A DNA stretch of 64,000 nt from Halotia branconii CENA392 (lineage in GTDB: Bacteria > Cyanobacteriota > Cyanobacteriia > Cyanobacteriales > Nostocaceae). The DNA lies in the NCBI RefSeq assembly GCF_029953635.1, contig NZ_CP124543.1:2149455-2213454 (forward strand), written 5' to 3'. This document shows, in pieces, positions 4,199 to 16,905 of this stretch (position 1 is the first letter of the stretch; each line of letters starts with the position of its first letter). Under the pieces are notes generated by a model. It had not been told where the DNA came from. It searched no databases and worked only from the letters and a program-made list of their open reading frames with translations. A program made the translations under genes and the position numbers.

Positions 4199-5707
4199 TT
4201 ACTTCACATCGTAACCAAACAAATTTGGATCAACTTCTCCTAACTGCAAATCAGCCAAACCATACTCTGCCCATCGCCTCTCTACCAACGCTGCAACATC
4301 GGGATCTGATTCTAGAGGCGCGCCCCATTCATGGTCTATTTCTGGCGTAATTTTAGTAGTAGCATCAATTCCCATGCGTCCGCCCAAGCCAATTTTTTCA
4401 CTGGCAAAATCTAAAGTATCAAAGGGTGTATTCGGTAAAATAAATACATCTCGTACAGGGTCAACTTTGGAACTAATTGCCCAAACCACTTGACGCGGAT
4501 CACGAATATTGATGTCTTTATCTACAACAATGACAAATTTAGTGTAAGTAAATTGTGGTAAAGCACTCCAAAATGCTAAAGCTGCCCGTCGTGCTTGTCC
4601 GGGATATGCTTTATCGATGGAAATAATAGCTGCTTTGTAACTTAAAGCTTCCATTGGTAGGAAGAAATCGACGATTTCTGAGACTTGTTGCCGCAGAATA
4701 GGAGTATAAATCCGATTGAGTGCGATCGCCATCATCGCTTCTTCTTTGGGTGGACGACCGCTAAATGTGGTTAAATAAATCGGGTTTTTGCGGTGTGTCA
4801 TACACTCAAAGCGAATCAAAGGCGAATCTTCGACACCACCGTAGTAACCCATGTGGTCGCCAAACGGCCCATCAGGTAAGACTTCGCCTGGGGTAATCGT
4901 TCCTTCTAAAACAAATTCGGAATCAGCGGGAACTTCCAAATCTACAGTTTTACATTTTGCTAGTTGCACACCCGAACCGCCATATAATCCTGCAAACAGC
5001 CATTCTGATAAATCTACAGGTATCGGCGTAGCAGCCGCCATGATAATTAGAGGATCTACACCAAGAGCGATCGCTACTTCTAATTTTTTCCCACGTTCGG
5101 CCGCTTTTCGCAAATGCCTCGCCCCTCCCCTTACAGATAACCAGTGAACAGTCATTGTGTTTTGAGATTGCAGTTGCAAGCGATATACACCTACATTTGG
5201 CGTACCTGTTTCACAATCCTTGGTAATTACCAACCCCAGCGTGATTATTTTGCCAGCATCACCAACATAAGGACGAATCAAAGGTAATTTGTGCAAATCT
5301 ACATCATTACCTTGAATTACTACTTGCTGACAAGCAGGGAAAAAGTCCCGTCCTGGCTTGGCTTTCACCACATCAAACAGTACTTTGCCAAAATCTATCG
5401 CCTGAGAAATCTTTTTTGGAGGTTTTGGTTGTTGCAGCATACTTAGCTTCTTCCCCAAAGTTTCTAATTCCTCTGGGTGTTGCATATTCATCGCCCAGCA
5501 AATCCTTTCCACCGTTCCCATCAAATTTACCGCCACCGGAAAATCAGCACCTTTGACGTTTTCAAATAACAAACCCGGCCCACCTTTTTGCAGCATCCGG
5601 TTGGAAATCTCAGCAATTTCTAATTCCGGGTCAACTAAAGCAGAAATTCGCTGTAATTGTCCTCTTTGTTCCAGAATTTTCATGAAGCCCCGTAAATCTC
5701 TCGCCAT
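4199..5707 (-). CDS. UbiD family decarboxylase
   Basis: A 502-residue member of the UbiD family, the prenylated-FMN-dependent (de)carboxylases. The length is normal. Family hallmarks visible are the start MARDLRGFMKILEQRGQL, PNVGVYRLQ (cofactor region), LPDGPFGDHMGYYGG, TFSGRPPKEE and a C-terminal GLGGRMGIDATTK. In many cyanobacteria this homologue is proposed to act in plastoquinone synthesis from 4-hydroxybenzoate, removing the carboxylate from the prenylated ring, but other UbiD members use different aromatic acids. The flavin prenyltransferase partner (UbiX) is not in the window. It is a single gene with no nearby co-oriented partner. Confidence 0.9.
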   Translation of the reverse strand: MARDLRGFMKILEQRGQLQRISALVDPELEIAEISNRMLQKGGPGLLFENVKGADFPVAVNLMGTVERICWAMNMQHPEELETLGKKLSMLQQPKPPKKISQAIDFGKVLFDVVKAKPGRDFFPACQQVVIQGNDVDLHKLPLIRPYVGDAGKIITLGLVITKDCETGTPNVGVYRLQLQSQNTMTVHWLSVRGGARHLRKAAERGKKLEVAIALGVDPLIIMAAATPIPVDLSEWLFAGLYGGSGVQLAKCKTVDLEVPADSEFVLEGTITPGEVLPDGPFGDHMGYYGGVEDSPLIRFECMTHRKNPIYLTTFSGRPPKEEAMMAIALNRIYTPILRQQVSEIVDFFLPMEALSYKAAIISIDKAYPGQARRAALAFWSALPQFTYTKFVIVVDKDINIRDPRQVVWAISSKVDPVRDVFILPNTPFDTLDFASEKIGLGGRMGIDATTKITPEIDHEWGAPLESDPDVAALVERRWAEYGLADLQLGEVDPNLFGYDVK

Positions 5708-6122
5708 TGTTCTAATAAATCTAATTATTTAAGAAGTATGAAGCGCTTTCTTAATATTATGTAGACTTTATGGCGGCTTAAGTAGGTCGATGTCAATAAT
5801 TATCGTTGGGATAAAACAGGGGGCAGGGGGCAGGGAGCAGGGGGAGAAAGAGTTTGAGCCTTATTTACTTCTATTCACATAGTTTGATTTTATTTCACTG
5901 ACTTACTTAGATAGTTATTATAGACTTCAAAATCAAAAAATATCCCAAAACTTACGCAAAAATCCTCTGTATTTGTCCTCTCTCTGTTTTCTTTGTCTTG
6001 ATTGTTACGGAGGGAAACCCTCTTGACAACTTTTCGCTGCGCCTCTGTGGTAGCCTACGGCAAGCCGCTTTGCGTCTACGTTTATTTGGATAATTTATTT
6101 TTTGGAAATCCTCTAGGCAAAA
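5708..6122. other. Intergenic stretch with G-rich repeat
   Basis: No gene is seen. Positions about 5817-5848 hold a purine-rich CAGGGGGCAGGGAGCAGG repeat of the kind dispersed through Nostocales genomes. The rest is AT-rich. A 65-codon open frame that starts here and runs to 6199 lies antisense to msrA and is not credible. Confidence 0.5.
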
Positions 6123-6614
6123 TTATCTATCTGATTGGTGTTTTGCCTTTTTCTCAAAATACTGCTGATGTTCTGCTGTTGCTAAGTAATATTCTTTAGC
6201 AGGCGTAATTTCCGTTACAATGTCTGGCTCAAATCTTCCAGACATTTGCAGCTTGTTCTTTGATTGCTGTGCTGCTTGTTGTTGCTGAGTATTATGAAAA
6301 AAGATCACAGACCTGTATTGTTCCCCTCTGTCTGGCCCTTGACGGTTTAGGGTTGTCGGGTCATGGATATCCCAAAACACCGCCAGTAAGTCATTATAAC
6401 TCACAGATTGTGGGTCATACTCTATCTGCACTACTTCAGCGTGACCCGTTATCCTCGACAATACATCAAGATAGCATGGATCAGGAAAATGCCCGCCCAT
6501 ATAGCCGACTGAGGTTGATATTACTCCCTTGACTTGACGAAATGCTGCCTCCACAGACCAAAAACATCCAGCACCAAACGTTGCTTTTTCTATTATTGTC
6601 ATGCACGGTTCCAT
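6123..6614 (-). CDS. msrA: Peptide-methionine (S)-S-oxide reductase MsrA
   Basis: A 163-residue MsrA. The catalytic motif GAGCFWSVEAAF is near residues 14-25, with the nucleophilic Cys at about 17. GYMGG and the block HAEVVQIEYDP, DLLAVFWDIHDPTTLNRQGPDRG.QYRS are diagnostic. The enzyme repairs oxidised methionine in proteins using thioredoxin. The C-terminus has no clear recycling cysteine pair, so it may be a one- or two-Cys form. A second Met at codon 5 (6602) is an alternative start. It stands alone, upstream of a repeat-containing gap. Confidence 0.95.
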   Translation of the reverse strand: MEPCMTIIEKATFGAGCFWSVEAAFRQVKGVISTSVGYMGGHFPDPCYLDVLSRITGHAEVVQIEYDPQSVSYNDLLAVFWDIHDPTTLNRQGPDRGEQYRSVIFFHNTQQQQAAQQSKNKLQMSGRFEPDIVTEITPAKEYYLATAEHQQYFEKKAKHQSDR

Positions 6615-10921: not shown

Positions 10922-11007
10922 CCACTAACCACTGACAATTGACCCGCCTAACATAAATAAAATAATATCAAGTCCGTCGAATTATTTATTTGCATATTTT
11001 TTCATTT

Positions 11008-11787
11008 ATGAATAAATTAATCCCTGCGATCCAAGTTAAAAATCTGAGTTTTTACTATAGAACTTCCAAAGCAATTGAAGGGATATCAATAGATATCTAC
11101 CAAAACCAAGTAACTGCAATTATTGGTCCCAGTGGTTGCGGTAAATCTACCTTTATCAAAACCCTCAATCGTATTAGTGAATTAGAAGGTGCTGTCAAAG
11201 TAGAAGGACGTGTAGAACTTTTTGGTCAAAATATTTATGACCCCCGCATAAACTTGAACCGCTTACGTCGTCAAATTGGCATGGTATTCCAAAAGCCAAA
11301 CCCCTTTCCCATGAGTATTTACGAAAATGTTGCTTATGGGATGAGAATAGCAGGTAGGCGATCGCCTATAGAATTAGATGAAATAGTTGAATCTGCTCTT
11401 AAAGATGCTGCTCTTTGGGATGAGGTTAAAGATAAACTACATCAATCCGCTTTGGGGCTTTCTGGCGGTCAACAACAGCGTCTTTGCATTGCCCGTGCTT
11501 TAGCTATTAAACCAAAAATTTTACTCATGGATGAGCCTTGTTCTGCTCTTGATCCAATTGCCACAATGAAAATTGAAGAACTAATTCATAGTTTACGCTC
11601 AGAATTGACGATCGCGATCGTTACTCACAATATGCAGCAAGCTGCTCGTATCTCTGATTTCACAGCTTTCTTCAGCACCGATGAAAGTCGTATCGGTCAA
11701 ATGGTTGAATTTGGGATCACAGAACAAATCTTTAACAACCCATTAGATCCCCGTACTCATGACTATGTTTCAGGGCGTTTCGGTTAA
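11008..11787 (+). CDS. pstB: Phosphate ABC transporter ATPase PstB (first copy)
   Basis: A 259-residue ATP-binding subunit. Walker A is GPSGCGKST, the Q-loop reads [12 protein letters not shown], the signature is [15 protein letters not shown], Walker B is ILLMDEP and the switch His is in VTHNMQQ. All are canonical, so this copy should drive phosphate import through PstC/PstA. The frame is open back to a TTG at 10990, but the ATG at 11008 fits the family start and matches the second copy downstream. A short repeat (ACCACTAACCACTGACAA) lies in the pstA-pstB gap. Confidence 0.95.
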
Positions 11788-12455: not shown

Positions 12456-13241
12456 ATGAATAAACTAATTACCGCTATTAAAGTTAAAAATCTCAACTTT
12501 TATTACAATACCCAAAAAATACTTGAAGGGATATCAATAGATATTTATCAAAGTAAAGTCACTGCTATTATTGGCCCTAGTGGTTGTGGAAAAACTACTT
12601 TTCTTAAATGTCTAAATCGCATGATTGATTTAGAAGGAGATGTAAAAGTAGAAGGACGGGTAGAATTTTTTAATCAAAATATTTATGAACGCCGAATTAA
12701 TTTAAATCGATTACGTCGCCAAGTTAGTATGGTACTCCCCAAGCCAAATCTTTTTCCGATGAGCGTTTACGACAATGTTGCCTATGGGGTGAAATTAGTG
12801 GGATGGCGACCCAAAACAGAATTAGATGGCATTGTAGAATCTGCTATCAAAGATGCTGACCTCTGGGATGAAGTAAAAAATAAACTGTATAAATCGGCTT
12901 TAGAACTTTCTGGAGGTCAACAGCAACGACTCTGTATTGCTCGTAGTTTAGCAGTCAAACCAAAAATTCTGCTAATGGACGAGCCTTGTTTTGGTCTTGA
13001 TCCCGTTGCTAGCATGAAAGTTGAAAGTTTAATTCAGAGTTTGCGTTTGCGTTCTGACTTAACAATGGTTTTTATTAGCCACAATTTACAACAAGTAACT
13101 CGTATATCTGATTTTACTGCTTTTTTTCAAAGCAATGAAAATCGGATTGGTCAAATGGTTGAATTTGGTATCACCAAAAAAATTTTTTCCAACCCTTGCG
13201 ATTCTCGTACTCGTGACTATGTTTTAACCCGTCTTAATTGA
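12456..13241 (+). CDS. Second, divergent PstB-like ATPase
   Basis: A 261-residue paralogue of the PstB encoded 670 bases upstream; identity is obvious along the whole length. Walker A (GPSGCGKTT), signature ([15 protein letters not shown]), Walker B (ILLMDEP) and the switch His (ISHNLQQ) are intact. The Q-loop is not: where PstB1 has VFQKPNPF, this copy has VLPKPNLF, so the conserved Gln that links Mg-ATP to the permease is a Pro. The D-loop neighbourhood also changed from SALDP to FGLDP. Cyanobacteria often carry two pstB genes, so it may be a regulated alternative, but ATPase coupling here is doubtful. Confidence 0.85.
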   Translation: MNKLITAIKVKNLNFYYNTQKILEGISIDIYQSKVTAIIGPSGCGKTTFLKCLNRMIDLEGDVKVEGRVEFFNQNIYERRINLNRLRRQVSMVLPKPNLFPMSVYDNVAYGVKLVGWRPKTELDGIVESAIKDADLWDEVKNKLYKSALELSGGQQQRLCIARSLAVKPKILLMDEPCFGLDPVASMKVESLIQSLRLRSDLTMVFISHNLQQVTRISDFTAFFQSNENRIGQMVEFGITKKIFSNPCDSRTRDYVLTRLN

Positions 13242-13384: not shown

Positions 13385-14911
13385 TCAGGTAATAAAATCA
13401 TTTAATTTGAGGGTAAACGTCGTCCATCCTTCACTACTTTCTACTTGAATACTTCCTTGCAATTGTTCTACTAACTTTTTTACTATGGCTAGTCCCAAGC
13501 CTGTACCACCCTGTTTTCGGAGGTCTGCGTTAGGAATACGATAGAATTTATCAAAAATTCGTGGTAGTGCTGCTGCTGCGATTTCTGCTGAATTACTAAT
13601 AGTAATGATGGTTGATGCGGGTGTTTCAGAAAAGTTATGACATACACTTACGATGATTTCACCACTAATAGGAGTATATTTACTAGCATTATGGAGCAAT
13701 TCTGTCAATATGCGTTCTAAGCTTGGGCGGTCTGAAAACAGCGATGGCAAATTTGCTGGGAGATTAAGTTGTAGAGTTTGCTGATATTCTTGAAAACGGA
13801 CTTGAAATGGCTCAATTACCCAAGGTAACAATTTTTGTAAAAGTAAGATTTCAGGGTTAATAAGCAGATGAGATAAAGTTTCTAAACGTTGTAAATCTAG
13901 TAAATCATTAATCAGTTCCATTTCGCGATCGCACTCAGTTTCCAAAAGTTCTAGATAACGCTGACTTTCCTCTGGGTCAGGAGAAATCTGTAACATTTGA
14001 ATGATCATCTTCATATTACTGAGAGGCGATCGCAGTTCGTGGGAAACTAAATTTAAAAATTCACTTTTAAGCTGATTTACTGCTTCTAATTGTGCTACAA
14101 GTTGTTCTTGTTCAATTTGCTTTTGACGAGCTTCAACAGCATTTTTAATCTCAGTAATGTCTCGAAATATCAATACTGCACCCGTGATATTTTCTTGGTC
14201 ATCTTTAATTGGTGCAGCACTATCATCGATTGGTATTTCTGTACCATTTTTAGAAATCAAAATTGTTTCTCTGGGTAATCTAAAACTATGACCATCTTGT
14301 AGAACTTGTTTTATAGGGCTTTCGATAGAATTACGAGTTTCTGCATTGGTAATATTGATTACCTCTGAAGATTTTTTGCCGTAAGCTTCTTCTTGTTTCC
14401 ATCCTGTCAAACTTTCCGCTACAGGATTCATGAAAGTTATTAACTCTTGTATATCACTCGCGATCACACCATCATTGATACTTTTAAGCAGGGTAGACAA
14501 CCATTTTTGGCTAGATTTTAATTGTCTTTCTAGTTGATGTTTTGTGAGTGCTATTTCGATATTAGTTTGTAGTTCTTTTTCTTTAAAAGGCTTGAGTAAA
14601 TAGCCAAATGGATCTGTATTTTTTGCTCTTTCTACAGTATTTTCATCAGCATAAGCAGTGAGATAAATTATAGGTATATCCAAATGCTTACGAATCTCTT
14701 GAGCAGCTTCCACACCGTCAATTTGACCTTTTAAGCGAATATCCATTAATACTAAATCTGGACGAGATTCTAGTGCTTTATTAATTGCTTCTTGTCCAGA
14801 AGAAACCGTTGCAATAACTCTATAACCAAATTTTTTGAGTTTATTTAGTAGATGTTTAGCTACAATAGCTTCGTCTTCTACGACTAAAATATTAGTATTG
14901 GCAGAACTCAT
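13385..14911 (-). CDS. Hybrid response regulator-PAS-histidine kinase
   Basis: A 508-residue cytoplasmic protein. Residues 7-122 form a receiver domain with phospho-acceptor Asp57 (LVLMDIRL), Thr85 and Lys107. A PAS domain covers about 135-255, ending in the typical GAVLIFRDITE. A HisKA domain has the phosphorylatable His291 in LVSHELRSPLSNM, and a HATPase_c domain follows (N-box LLHNASKYTP, G-box GTGLGLAIVKKLVE). The gene begins 23 bases after the stop of the ethylene-receptor-like kinase, same strand. The pair probably forms a relay in which the upstream kinase phosphorylates this receiver, tuning its own kinase output. Confidence 0.9.
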   Translation of the reverse strand: MSSANTNILVVEDEAIVAKHLLNKLKKFGYRVIATVSSGQEAINKALESRPDLVLMDIRLKGQIDGVEAAQEIRKHLDIPIIYLTAYADENTVERAKNTDPFGYLLKPFKEKELQTNIEIALTKHQLERQLKSSQKWLSTLLKSINDGVIASDIQELITFMNPVAESLTGWKQEEAYGKKSSEVINITNAETRNSIESPIKQVLQDGHSFRLPRETILISKNGTEIPIDDSAAPIKDDQENITGAVLIFRDITEIKNAVEARQKQIEQEQLVAQLEAVNQLKSEFLNLVSHELRSPLSNMKMIIQMLQISPDPEESQRYLELLETECDREMELINDLLDLQRLETLSHLLINPEILLLQKLLPWVIEPFQVRFQEYQQTLQLNLPANLPSLFSDRPSLERILTELLHNASKYTPISGEIIVSVCHNFSETPASTIITISNSAEIAAAALPRIFDKFYRIPNADLRKQGGTGLGLAIVKKLVEQLQGSIQVESSEGWTTFTLKLNDFIT

Positions 14912-14934
14912 ATTTTCCTCTTTAGATGATTATT

Positions 14935-16905
14935 TTATACTGAGAATAGGATTTGAAACTCCGATCCTTTCTCACTTTTAATATTTAGATTTCCATTAAT
15001 TTGGGTTACTAAAGCATCTACTAACTGCCAACCTAATGAAGCTGTATTGTCAAAACTAAAATTTGATGGTAAACCAACTCCATTATCACTCACTTTGAAT
15101 AAAATGTTATTTTTATAAACTTGTTTAATTTCAACTTTTATTTCACCTTTTCTCCCTTTAGGAAAGGCATGTTTTAATGAATTAGAAACAAGCTCATGGA
15201 TAATTAATCCACAAGGAACTGCCGTATCTAAGCCTAGTAAAATATGCTCATCTATATTTATATTCAGAGTAATAGCATCTTCATTTAATTCGTATGAAGC
15301 CCATAAAATGGCTACTAAATCTTGAACATATTCACCGAAATTAATTTTTGCTAAATCTTGTGAGCCATACATTTTTTCGTGAACCAAAGCCATTGATGCA
15401 ATCCGCCGCTGACTTTGTTTAAATATTTCCACATATTGTTGCTCTTGAATATAGTCAGATTGCAAACTAAGGAGACTAGAAATAACCTGTAAATTGTTTT
15501 TTACACGATGGTAAACTTCCTTTAAAAGGACTTCTTTTTCTAAAAGAGAAGCTTGGAGGCGCTCTTGTGATATCTGGCGATCGCGTAGTGCAGCTTGCCG
15601 TTCACTAATGTCTTCAACAACGGCAATAAAATACTTTGGTAAACCAGAAATTTCCCGCACTAAAGAAGCAGTAAGATTAATCCAAACAATAGAACCATCT
15701 TTTCGGAAATAGCGTTTTTCCATAGAATAAGTTTGAATATCACCTGCTAACATCTGTTCCATGTATTTCAAATCAGTGTCAAGATCATCTGGATGAGTAA
15801 TATCTTGGAAAGTTAGTAATCGTAGTTCCTGGAGTGTGTAACCAACAATCTCACAAAGCCTCTGGTTAACTAATGACCAAGCTCCATTTGTTTCTACATG
15901 GGCAATACCAACAGCAGCTTGATGAAATGTAGCGCGAAAACGCTGTTCACTTTCCCGTAATGCTTCTTCTATTTGCTGACGATGAATGATTTCACTCTCT
16001 AGAGATTCGTTGATTTTGGTTAGTTCTGCGGTTCGCTGCTCAACTATGGTTTCTAATTGGTTGAGTAGGCTACTTAATGCTTCTTCTGCTTGCTTACGTT
16101 CTGTAATATCAGTGTGCGAGCCTACCATCCGTATTACTTTCCCATTCTCATCCCACAATGCCTGACCCCGATCCAAAATCCACTTATAAGAGCCGTCTTT
16201 ACATAAAACTCGATGCTCATTAGTGTAAAACGATGTAGCTTTAGCAAAGTGATCTTCAATTGCTTGTGTCGCACACTCAAGATCATCTGGATGCACTCGT
16301 TTTGACCATTCATCTAAATGATTAGAAATCTCCTGTTCTTCATAACCAAGCATTTGCTTCCAACGAGTTGAAAAGAACACTTCATTAGTTTTAAGGTTCC
16401 AGTCCCAAATACCATCATTATTACCGCGTAAAGCTAACTGCCAGCGCTGTTCACTTTCTCTAAGAACCTCCTCAGTTCGTTTGCGTTGAGCAACTTCTTT
16501 GGCTAATTGGCAGTTTGCAGCCTCTAATTGGACAGGGCTAGGTAGAGCAAGTGCCTGGGGAGTTAATGACATCAATTCTAAAGCTGTATATATAGAAACA
16601 AAAGCGGTGATAGTTTTAATCAATCCTGATAGCCAATATGTGGGATGCCACAGTGTCCATACTTCCAGCAAATGTGTTGTACCGCAAGCAACGATGAATA
16701 AGCCAAACAAAAGAAAAATCCAGTCAAAAGGCACATCTCTTCGTTGGCGGACAAAATAGAACAACATCGCTGGAATTGAATAATAAGCCAGTGCAATTAG
16801 CGAATCGGAAATGATATGTAACCAGACTAGTTCCGGTTTCCAGAGGTAGCAATGTCCATGAGGAATAAATTGACTAGAAAAAAAATTCTGGAAAAATTCA
16901 GTCAT
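14935..16905 (-). CDS. Ethylene-receptor-type sensor histidine kinase
   Basis: A 656-residue kinase. Three transmembrane helices (about residues 27-52, 61-82, 88-112) match the ethylene-binding domain of plant ETR1. Asp34, Tyr41, Ile44, Pro45, Cys74 and His78 correspond to ETR1 Asp25, Tyr32, Ile35, Pro36, Cys65 and His69, all with the same offset of nine; Cys and His are the copper(I) ligands. Two PAS/PAC modules follow (about 150-272 and 318-437), joined by a coiled coil. The kinase core is of the HisKA_2 type with His466 in [17 protein letters not shown]. Known cyanobacterial relatives include Synechocystis SynEtr1, which binds ethylene and also senses UV-A through another domain. This protein lacks a phytochrome-type GAF domain. 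Its partner is the hybrid regulator 23 bases downstream. Confidence 0.9.

Follow-up and report, generated by a model that had tools for sequence, protein, structure and literature searches.

Within the window, here the whole stretch of 64,000 nt that was analysed (Halotia branconii CENA392, GCF_029953635.1, NZ_CP124543.1 positions 2,149,455 to 2,213,454, forward strand), we identify a well-supported candidate ethylene sensor, the product of a sensor kinase gene hereafter termed K, paired with a receiver protein, hereafter P. We consider the candidate well supported because the binding residues are all present and, in the orthologs covering them, invariant, and because the pair is conserved whereas its flanks are almost not. 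For the broader proposal, that K and P constitute a two-gene ethylene-type signalling cassette in which P would act as relay intermediate, the sensor head would be interchangeable and a run of nine T (T9) would direct slippage in many sister species, we put the chances at about even.

A candidate ethylene sensor kinase and its partner

Both open reading frames lie at the coordinates originally given, on the minus strand; they encode 656 and 508 aa and leave 23 untranslated bases between them. The features of the two genes are as follows:

14935..16905, minus strand: K, ETR1_N-PAS-PAS-HisKA_2-HATPase sensor kinase, 656 aa, phospho-acceptor His466 (ORF, Pfam)
16878..16885, minus strand: T8 run of K, codons 7-10, in frame in the window copy (sequence)
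16543..16833, minus strand: ETR1_N ethylene-binding domain of K, residues 25-121 (Pfam PF25487, 149 bits)
16117..16380, minus strand: first PAS domain of K (PAS_3), residues 176-263 (Pfam)
15607..15942, minus strand: second PAS domain of K, residues 322-433 (Pfam)
15292..15519, minus strand: HisKA_2 dimerisation/phospho-acceptor domain of K, residues 463-538 (Pfam)
14944..15207, minus strand: HATPase domain of K, residues 567-654, with intact G1 box DNGVG (Pfam and sequence)
13385..14911, minus strand: P, REC-PAS-HisKA-HATPase partner, 508 aa, with a ribosome-binding-like AGAGG before its ATG (ORF, Pfam)
14558..14890, minus strand: receiver domain of P, residues 8-118, Asp57 (Pfam and sequence)
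13877..14068, minus strand: HisKA domain of P, residues 282-345, His291 in SHELRSPL (Pfam and sequence)
13580..13597, minus strand: degenerate G1 box of P, SNSAEI (residues 439-444), where DxGxG is expected (sequence)

The kinase core of K is of the HisKA_2/HWE type (93.7 bits), with a conserved His466 and N and G1 boxes; the letters at H466 and in the ATPase boxes are [17 protein letters not shown]. As had been noted from the sequence, K contains no GAF domain and only PAS domains, of which Pfam finds two. Its PAS-PAS and HisKA_2 arrangement differs from the ETR1/SynEtr1 architecture, in which a GAF domain lies between the binding domain and a HisKA kinase. Comparison with NCBIfam returned no named equivalog above the cut-off for K, P or the relatives tried. 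Elsewhere in the window, a second PstB-like ABC ATPase (12456-13241) lies beside the pst operon, and its Q-loop reads VLPKPN versus VFQKPN in the first copy (10990-11787), the usual Gln being replaced by Pro.

The match of K to ETR1_N (PF25487) scores 149.3 bits against a curated cut-off of 27, and is therefore not due to chance. The proposed correspondence of Asp34, Tyr41, Ile44, Pro45, Cys74 and His78 with ETR1 Asp25, Tyr32, Ile35, Pro36, Cys65 and His69, at an offset of nine, was borne out, and Ile71 matches ETR1 Ile62 as a seventh conserved binding position, so that all seven ethylene-binding residues (D34, Y41, I44, P45, I71, C74 and H78) are present in K. The claim that the match to ETR1 runs without a gap over 112 residues had to be revised, since the multiple alignment requires a 3-residue gap after residue ~88, in the TM2-TM3 loop, past which Lys97 of K aligns with ETR1 Lys91 at an offset of six. 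Wang et al. in 2006 reportedly established D25, Y32, I35, P36, I62, C65 and H69 as the required ETR1 residues, and the ETR1 sequence in our alignment, which we take to be correct, agrees in its numbering with the published D25, Y32, I35, P36, C65, H69 and K91. Seven residues required for ethylene binding have also been described elsewhere (PMC11819568). Relatives of the window genome supplied 75 ETR1_N genes, across which these binding residues are near-invariant; in the cassette loci whose sequence reaches these positions, the seven residues and the Lys91 equivalent do not vary at all.

An AlphaFold model of K residues 1-150, built from 60 sequences, presents three long helices with pLDDT values of 90-98, and the transmembrane helices predicted at residues 24-54, 61-83 and 90-119 would provide the three helices of an ETR1-type membrane domain. 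A structure search of the PDB with this modelled domain gave no significant match (best E 0.66), and there is therefore no solved homolog with which to compare it. Cyanobacterial ethylene-receptor kinases of varied architecture are already known (PMC6682694, PMC7700396), and ethylene binding has been reported for the cyanobacterial relative SynEtr1 (PMC6682694) and for AzoEtr1 (PMC11819568), both of which have the same binding residues as K.

The Halotia genome encodes three ETR1_N kinases in all, K and two others with HisKA cores and C-terminal receivers. Because of these two, K is not the sole candidate ethylene sensor of its genome; the other two could be the main ethylene receptors of the genome. 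One of the two, of the HisKA-receiver type (L005 6517-9765; G000:C1 about 4034516-4037764), has a REC-kinase gene 27 bases behind it, and in the Halotia genome this pair sits within a bilin-lyase/CpeT phycobilisome cluster. A link of this kinase to phycobilisome genes was considered and discarded as a functional clue, since two relatives 76-79% identical to it (L161 and L168) have retained the pair and not the neighbourhood, neither of them lying in such a cluster.

Conservation of the pair and probable exchange of sensor heads

Orthologs of K are present in 61 of the 218 Nostocaceae genomes sampled, spread over 9 of 56 genera, and among 391 genomes sampled across the order the Nostocaceae are the only family with full-length orthologs. 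The partner was inspected in 44 of these 61 genomes, and an intact copy lies directly downstream on the same strand in 41 of them, mostly at a distance of 4-24 bases. The three exceptions are G163, in which the partner is gone, G074, in which both genes have decayed, and G179, in which K is broken and the partner intact. The predicted pairing is hence kept, rather than lost, across close relatives. Each of the 13 K orthologs of the named set lies beside a partner gene (in pieces in two of them), and the flanking genes mostly differ. Because the two genes are retained or lost together amid mostly unlike flanks, the pair travels and decays as a unit, and the comparison of loci indicates that it is a mobile cassette. 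In G126 (L255 about 5050-6540), a truncated orphan partner lies beside a 42-residue remnant of K, the sensor having been lost in a genus where others retain it.

A search of the phylum with P recovered partner homologs at 39-63% identity, and in the loci fetched the gene immediately upstream of the non-ETR homologs encodes a HisKA_2 kinase with a PAS-array, GAF, receiver or DUF4118 head. Because homologous partners follow HisKA_2 kinases with other heads, ethylene sensing would be one interchangeable input; the recurrence of the kinase/partner cassette with these heads speaks against a pair specific to ethylene. The kinase-core tree and the partner tree contain the same main clades, and of three label changes in them one is an artefact, caused by a frame break that divides the ETR gene L312. 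At L258 (2341-6179), in another cyanobacterial family, an ETR1_N head sits on a distant HisKA_2 cassette (30% identical to K and 46% to P) whose partner groups with non-ETR cassettes with support of 100/99. The ETR1_N head therefore occurs on at least two cassette lineages, and an independent grafting of the head at L258 is possible on this evidence. Rearranged forms were also observed: at L270 (2830-6357), the receiver-PAS half of the partner is fused to a different C-terminus beside a REC-HisKA_2 kinase, and at L340 and L342 an ETR1_N-PAS part 60-62% identical to K belongs to frames of 994 and 1531 residues, hence with other C-termini.

A degenerate ATP site in the partner

Asp57 of P occupies the phospho-acceptor position of the receiver, as predicted, and P also retains the phospho-acceptor His291, the N box ELLHNASKYTP, the F box and the G2 box GGTGLGL. 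Of the boxes expected in an active kinase, it is the DxGxG of G1 that is missing. The partner G1 is an NSxEI variant in 53 of 53 ETR-paired loci (a few of which are the same genome reached twice), and the sensor G1, D-N/D-G-x-G, is intact in all 53; partners of the window's clade have lost one further G1 residue. Nearly all of P's 30 closest own-genome kinases that align at G1 have it intact, the two closest relatives sharing the altered form. An outer clade of nine partner homologs keeps an intact G1, and the degenerate state is for this reason probably derived. With G1 degenerate in the partner while intact in the sensor, P appears to be a relay phosphotransferase or a phosphatase, and a relay intermediate is its most likely role because the degeneracy extends to every ETR-paired copy. 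The view of P as a phosphorelay kinase partner consequently stands as regards a receiver partner, and is unsupported or overstated as regards a protein that is simply a kinase. A structure model of P (mean pLDDT 65) was too poor for use.

Conversely, P could be a normal, active kinase under the control of its receiver, with NSxEI as a working G1 variant and the two kinases acting in series. The strong conservation of the N, F and G2 boxes in all copies implies a folded domain in which nucleotide binding is probably retained, so that P may still bind ATP and be active, and an Asn at G1 could still hydrogen-bond adenine. However, P lacks the Asp and both glycines of a DxGxG motif that the outer clade and most aligned own-genome kinases keep, with one residue deleted as well, and we consider two active kinases in series rather unlikely, favoring a relay intermediate. 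A comparable question concerns the input to K, whose two PAS domains could carry the true signal, with ETR1_N sensing copper or another small hydrophobic gas or merely serving to anchor or dimerise the protein. The Cys/His copper ligands would fit a copper sensor, and elsewhere the cassette works with heads that lack ETR1_N. Against this, binding residues beyond the copper ligands (D34, Y41, I44, P45 and I71) show no variation wherever the loci extend over them, and the bacterial ETR1_N domains reported as assayed in PMC6682694 and PMC11819568 bound ethylene, which makes an input other than ethylene improbable in our judgement.

A T9 run at the start of sister-species genes

In 21 ortholog genomes from several genera (L150, L139, L275, L277, L292, L294, L295 and L297-L310), an exact T9 occupies codons 7-9 of the K ortholog and leaves the receptor one base out of frame with its start. 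The window's closest relative, G015, carries this out-of-frame T9; the window copy has T8 followed by CT and is in frame. The T9 copies open with an ATG (as in MELLNNFF or MTEFLDNFF) and are homologous there to the in-frame MTEFFQNFF of the window, and past the run the receptor frame resumes, one base off, as [15 protein letters not shown].... Read straight, a T9 gene yields a peptide of 12-35 residues; the product would reach 643-658 residues if one U were added or the frame slipped by -1 on U UUU UUU.

The first 12 codons past T9 show a pN of 0.048 and a pS of 0.646, and over 16 codons the variable sites by codon position number 5, 1 and 13; the receptor frame just past the run is under strong purifying selection. 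The segment upstream of T9 is homologous to the in-frame copies and too short for a selection test. Mapped onto the ortholog tree, T9 requires 4 changes, versus 17.6 for shuffled labels. An RNA stem 3' of T9, considered as a possible stimulator of ribosomal frameshifting, has a consensus energy of -6.2 versus -2.5 (sd 2.0) for column-shuffled alignments, a weak signal confounded by codon conservation. The sequences of these 21 genomes suggest two frames joined solely by a conserved slippery run with a selected frame beyond it, the pattern of programmed slippage. Transcriptional slippage or -1 frameshifting is probable for the T9 genes, and their receptor can apparently be made only when the run is misread. 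That a programmed switch at T9 (an extra U or a -1 shift) sets receptor output at a low or condition-dependent dose, in combination with a pseudokinase-like phosphotransferase as partner, is a tentative proposal to which we give somewhat less than even weight. In many bacteria, selection against runs prone to slippage becomes apparent at a length of nine bases, and use of A9 runs, and even of A8, has been suggested for IS elements of Nostoc PCC 7120 (PMC1088944); our literature search found no report of T9-run slippage of this kind. Phase variation at the run was discarded as a candidate, since 21 of the 22 long pure runs measure exactly 9, the single T10 belonging to G179, where the gene is broken elsewhere.

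It might be argued that the T9 genes are pseudogenes, sequencing errors or genes with internal starts, no recoding being involved. A single-base change in a homopolymer is indeed a common error, but 21 genomes, several assembled in 1-8 contigs, share exactly T9 in one register, no out-of-frame copy has another run length, and further downstream these genes contain no T run of at least 8 in 211 kb of coding sequence. Decay of the gene is similarly difficult to reconcile with an open long frame, an intact partner and the low pN relative to pS in the codons just past the run. Some T9 copies do have an in-frame GTG or TTG 12-15 codons into the conserved segment; however, in G180, G181, G183 and G186 the first in-frame ATG, GTG or TTG lies 33-35 codons on, past D34-P45, and an internal start was rejected for this reason. 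Explanations without recoding therefore strike us as very improbable, and misreading of the run is the reading that we retain for the T9 genes.

Proposed mechanism and implications

In the mechanism that we propose, ethylene would bind to dimeric K at the copper site that Cys74 and His78 form within the membrane domain, and its binding would change autophosphorylation at His466 through the intact HisKA_2/HATPase core. As suggested by the conserved adjacency and domain make-up of the two genes, phosphate would then pass from K to Asp57 of P, whose phosphorylated receiver would most likely gate a His291 phosphotransferase or phosphatase acting on an unlinked response regulator; the K-P pair itself has no output regulator beside it. 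The ethylene head would be one of several sensor heads on a cyanobacterial kinase/partner cassette, and in many sister species production of the full-length sensor would also need slippage at the early T9, the window copy being in frame.

For bacterial ethylene receptors, role and onward signalling are known for just a few species, and a conserved GAF-free sensor with one near-invariable partner opens the downstream step to direct tests in those Nostocaceae that can be cultured. The consistently degraded ATP site of the partner predicts a phosphotransfer or phosphatase step that should be measurable in vitro. Furthermore, the T9 of the sister species, if it works as predicted, would be an unusual case of slippage control over a hormone-type receptor, which RNA sequencing would suffice to check.

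Comparison with known systems

SynEtr1 (slr1212) of Synechocystis PCC 6803 resembles K in its N-terminal ETR1_N domain, conserved copper ligands and C-terminal kinase, and has a receiver protein, slr1213, encoded downstream, as K has P (PMC6682694). In contrast to K, SynEtr1 contains a cyanobacteriochrome GAF domain and signals to a response regulator, whereas K lacks a GAF domain, is built on a HisKA_2 core and is paired with a REC-PAS-kinase whose ATP box is degenerate; the core of ETR1 is HisKA, and that of SynEtr1 likewise differs from the core of K. AzoEtr1 of Azospirillum brasilense is also a GAF-free ETR1_N-PAS-kinase with an adjacent receiver gene, and its D35/C75/H79/K98 have the same residue spacing as in K (PMC11819568), but its partner is a 135-aa single-domain receiver and that of K a four-domain protein. 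GeiEtr1 and GeiEtr2 of Geitlerinema PCC 7105 are, like K, cyanobacterial ETR1_N kinases, two in one genome; unlike K, both have a GAF domain, and the parts of the report available to us describe no such partner (PMC6682694).

For P, the closest parallel is PhyT of the alphaproteobacterium Sphingomonas melonis, likewise kinase-derived with a degenerate ATPase domain, which acts as phosphotransferase between a receiver and an output regulator (PMC5898713). The phosphate donor of PhyT is the separate single-domain receiver SdrG, whereas P carries its own receiver, and a PhyT-like function of P would hold by analogy. The T9 genes resemble Shigella mxiE and Thermus dnaX, in which slippage at homopolymer runs restores or changes the frame (PMC1088944); in mxiE and dnaX slippage is experimentally shown, whereas the T9 at codons 7-9 of the sensor kinase gene is known from comparison only. 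What sets this system apart from known receptors is the combination of a GAF-free HisKA_2-type receptor, a conserved cassette and a partner with a degraded ATP site, together with a probable slippage control in sister species.
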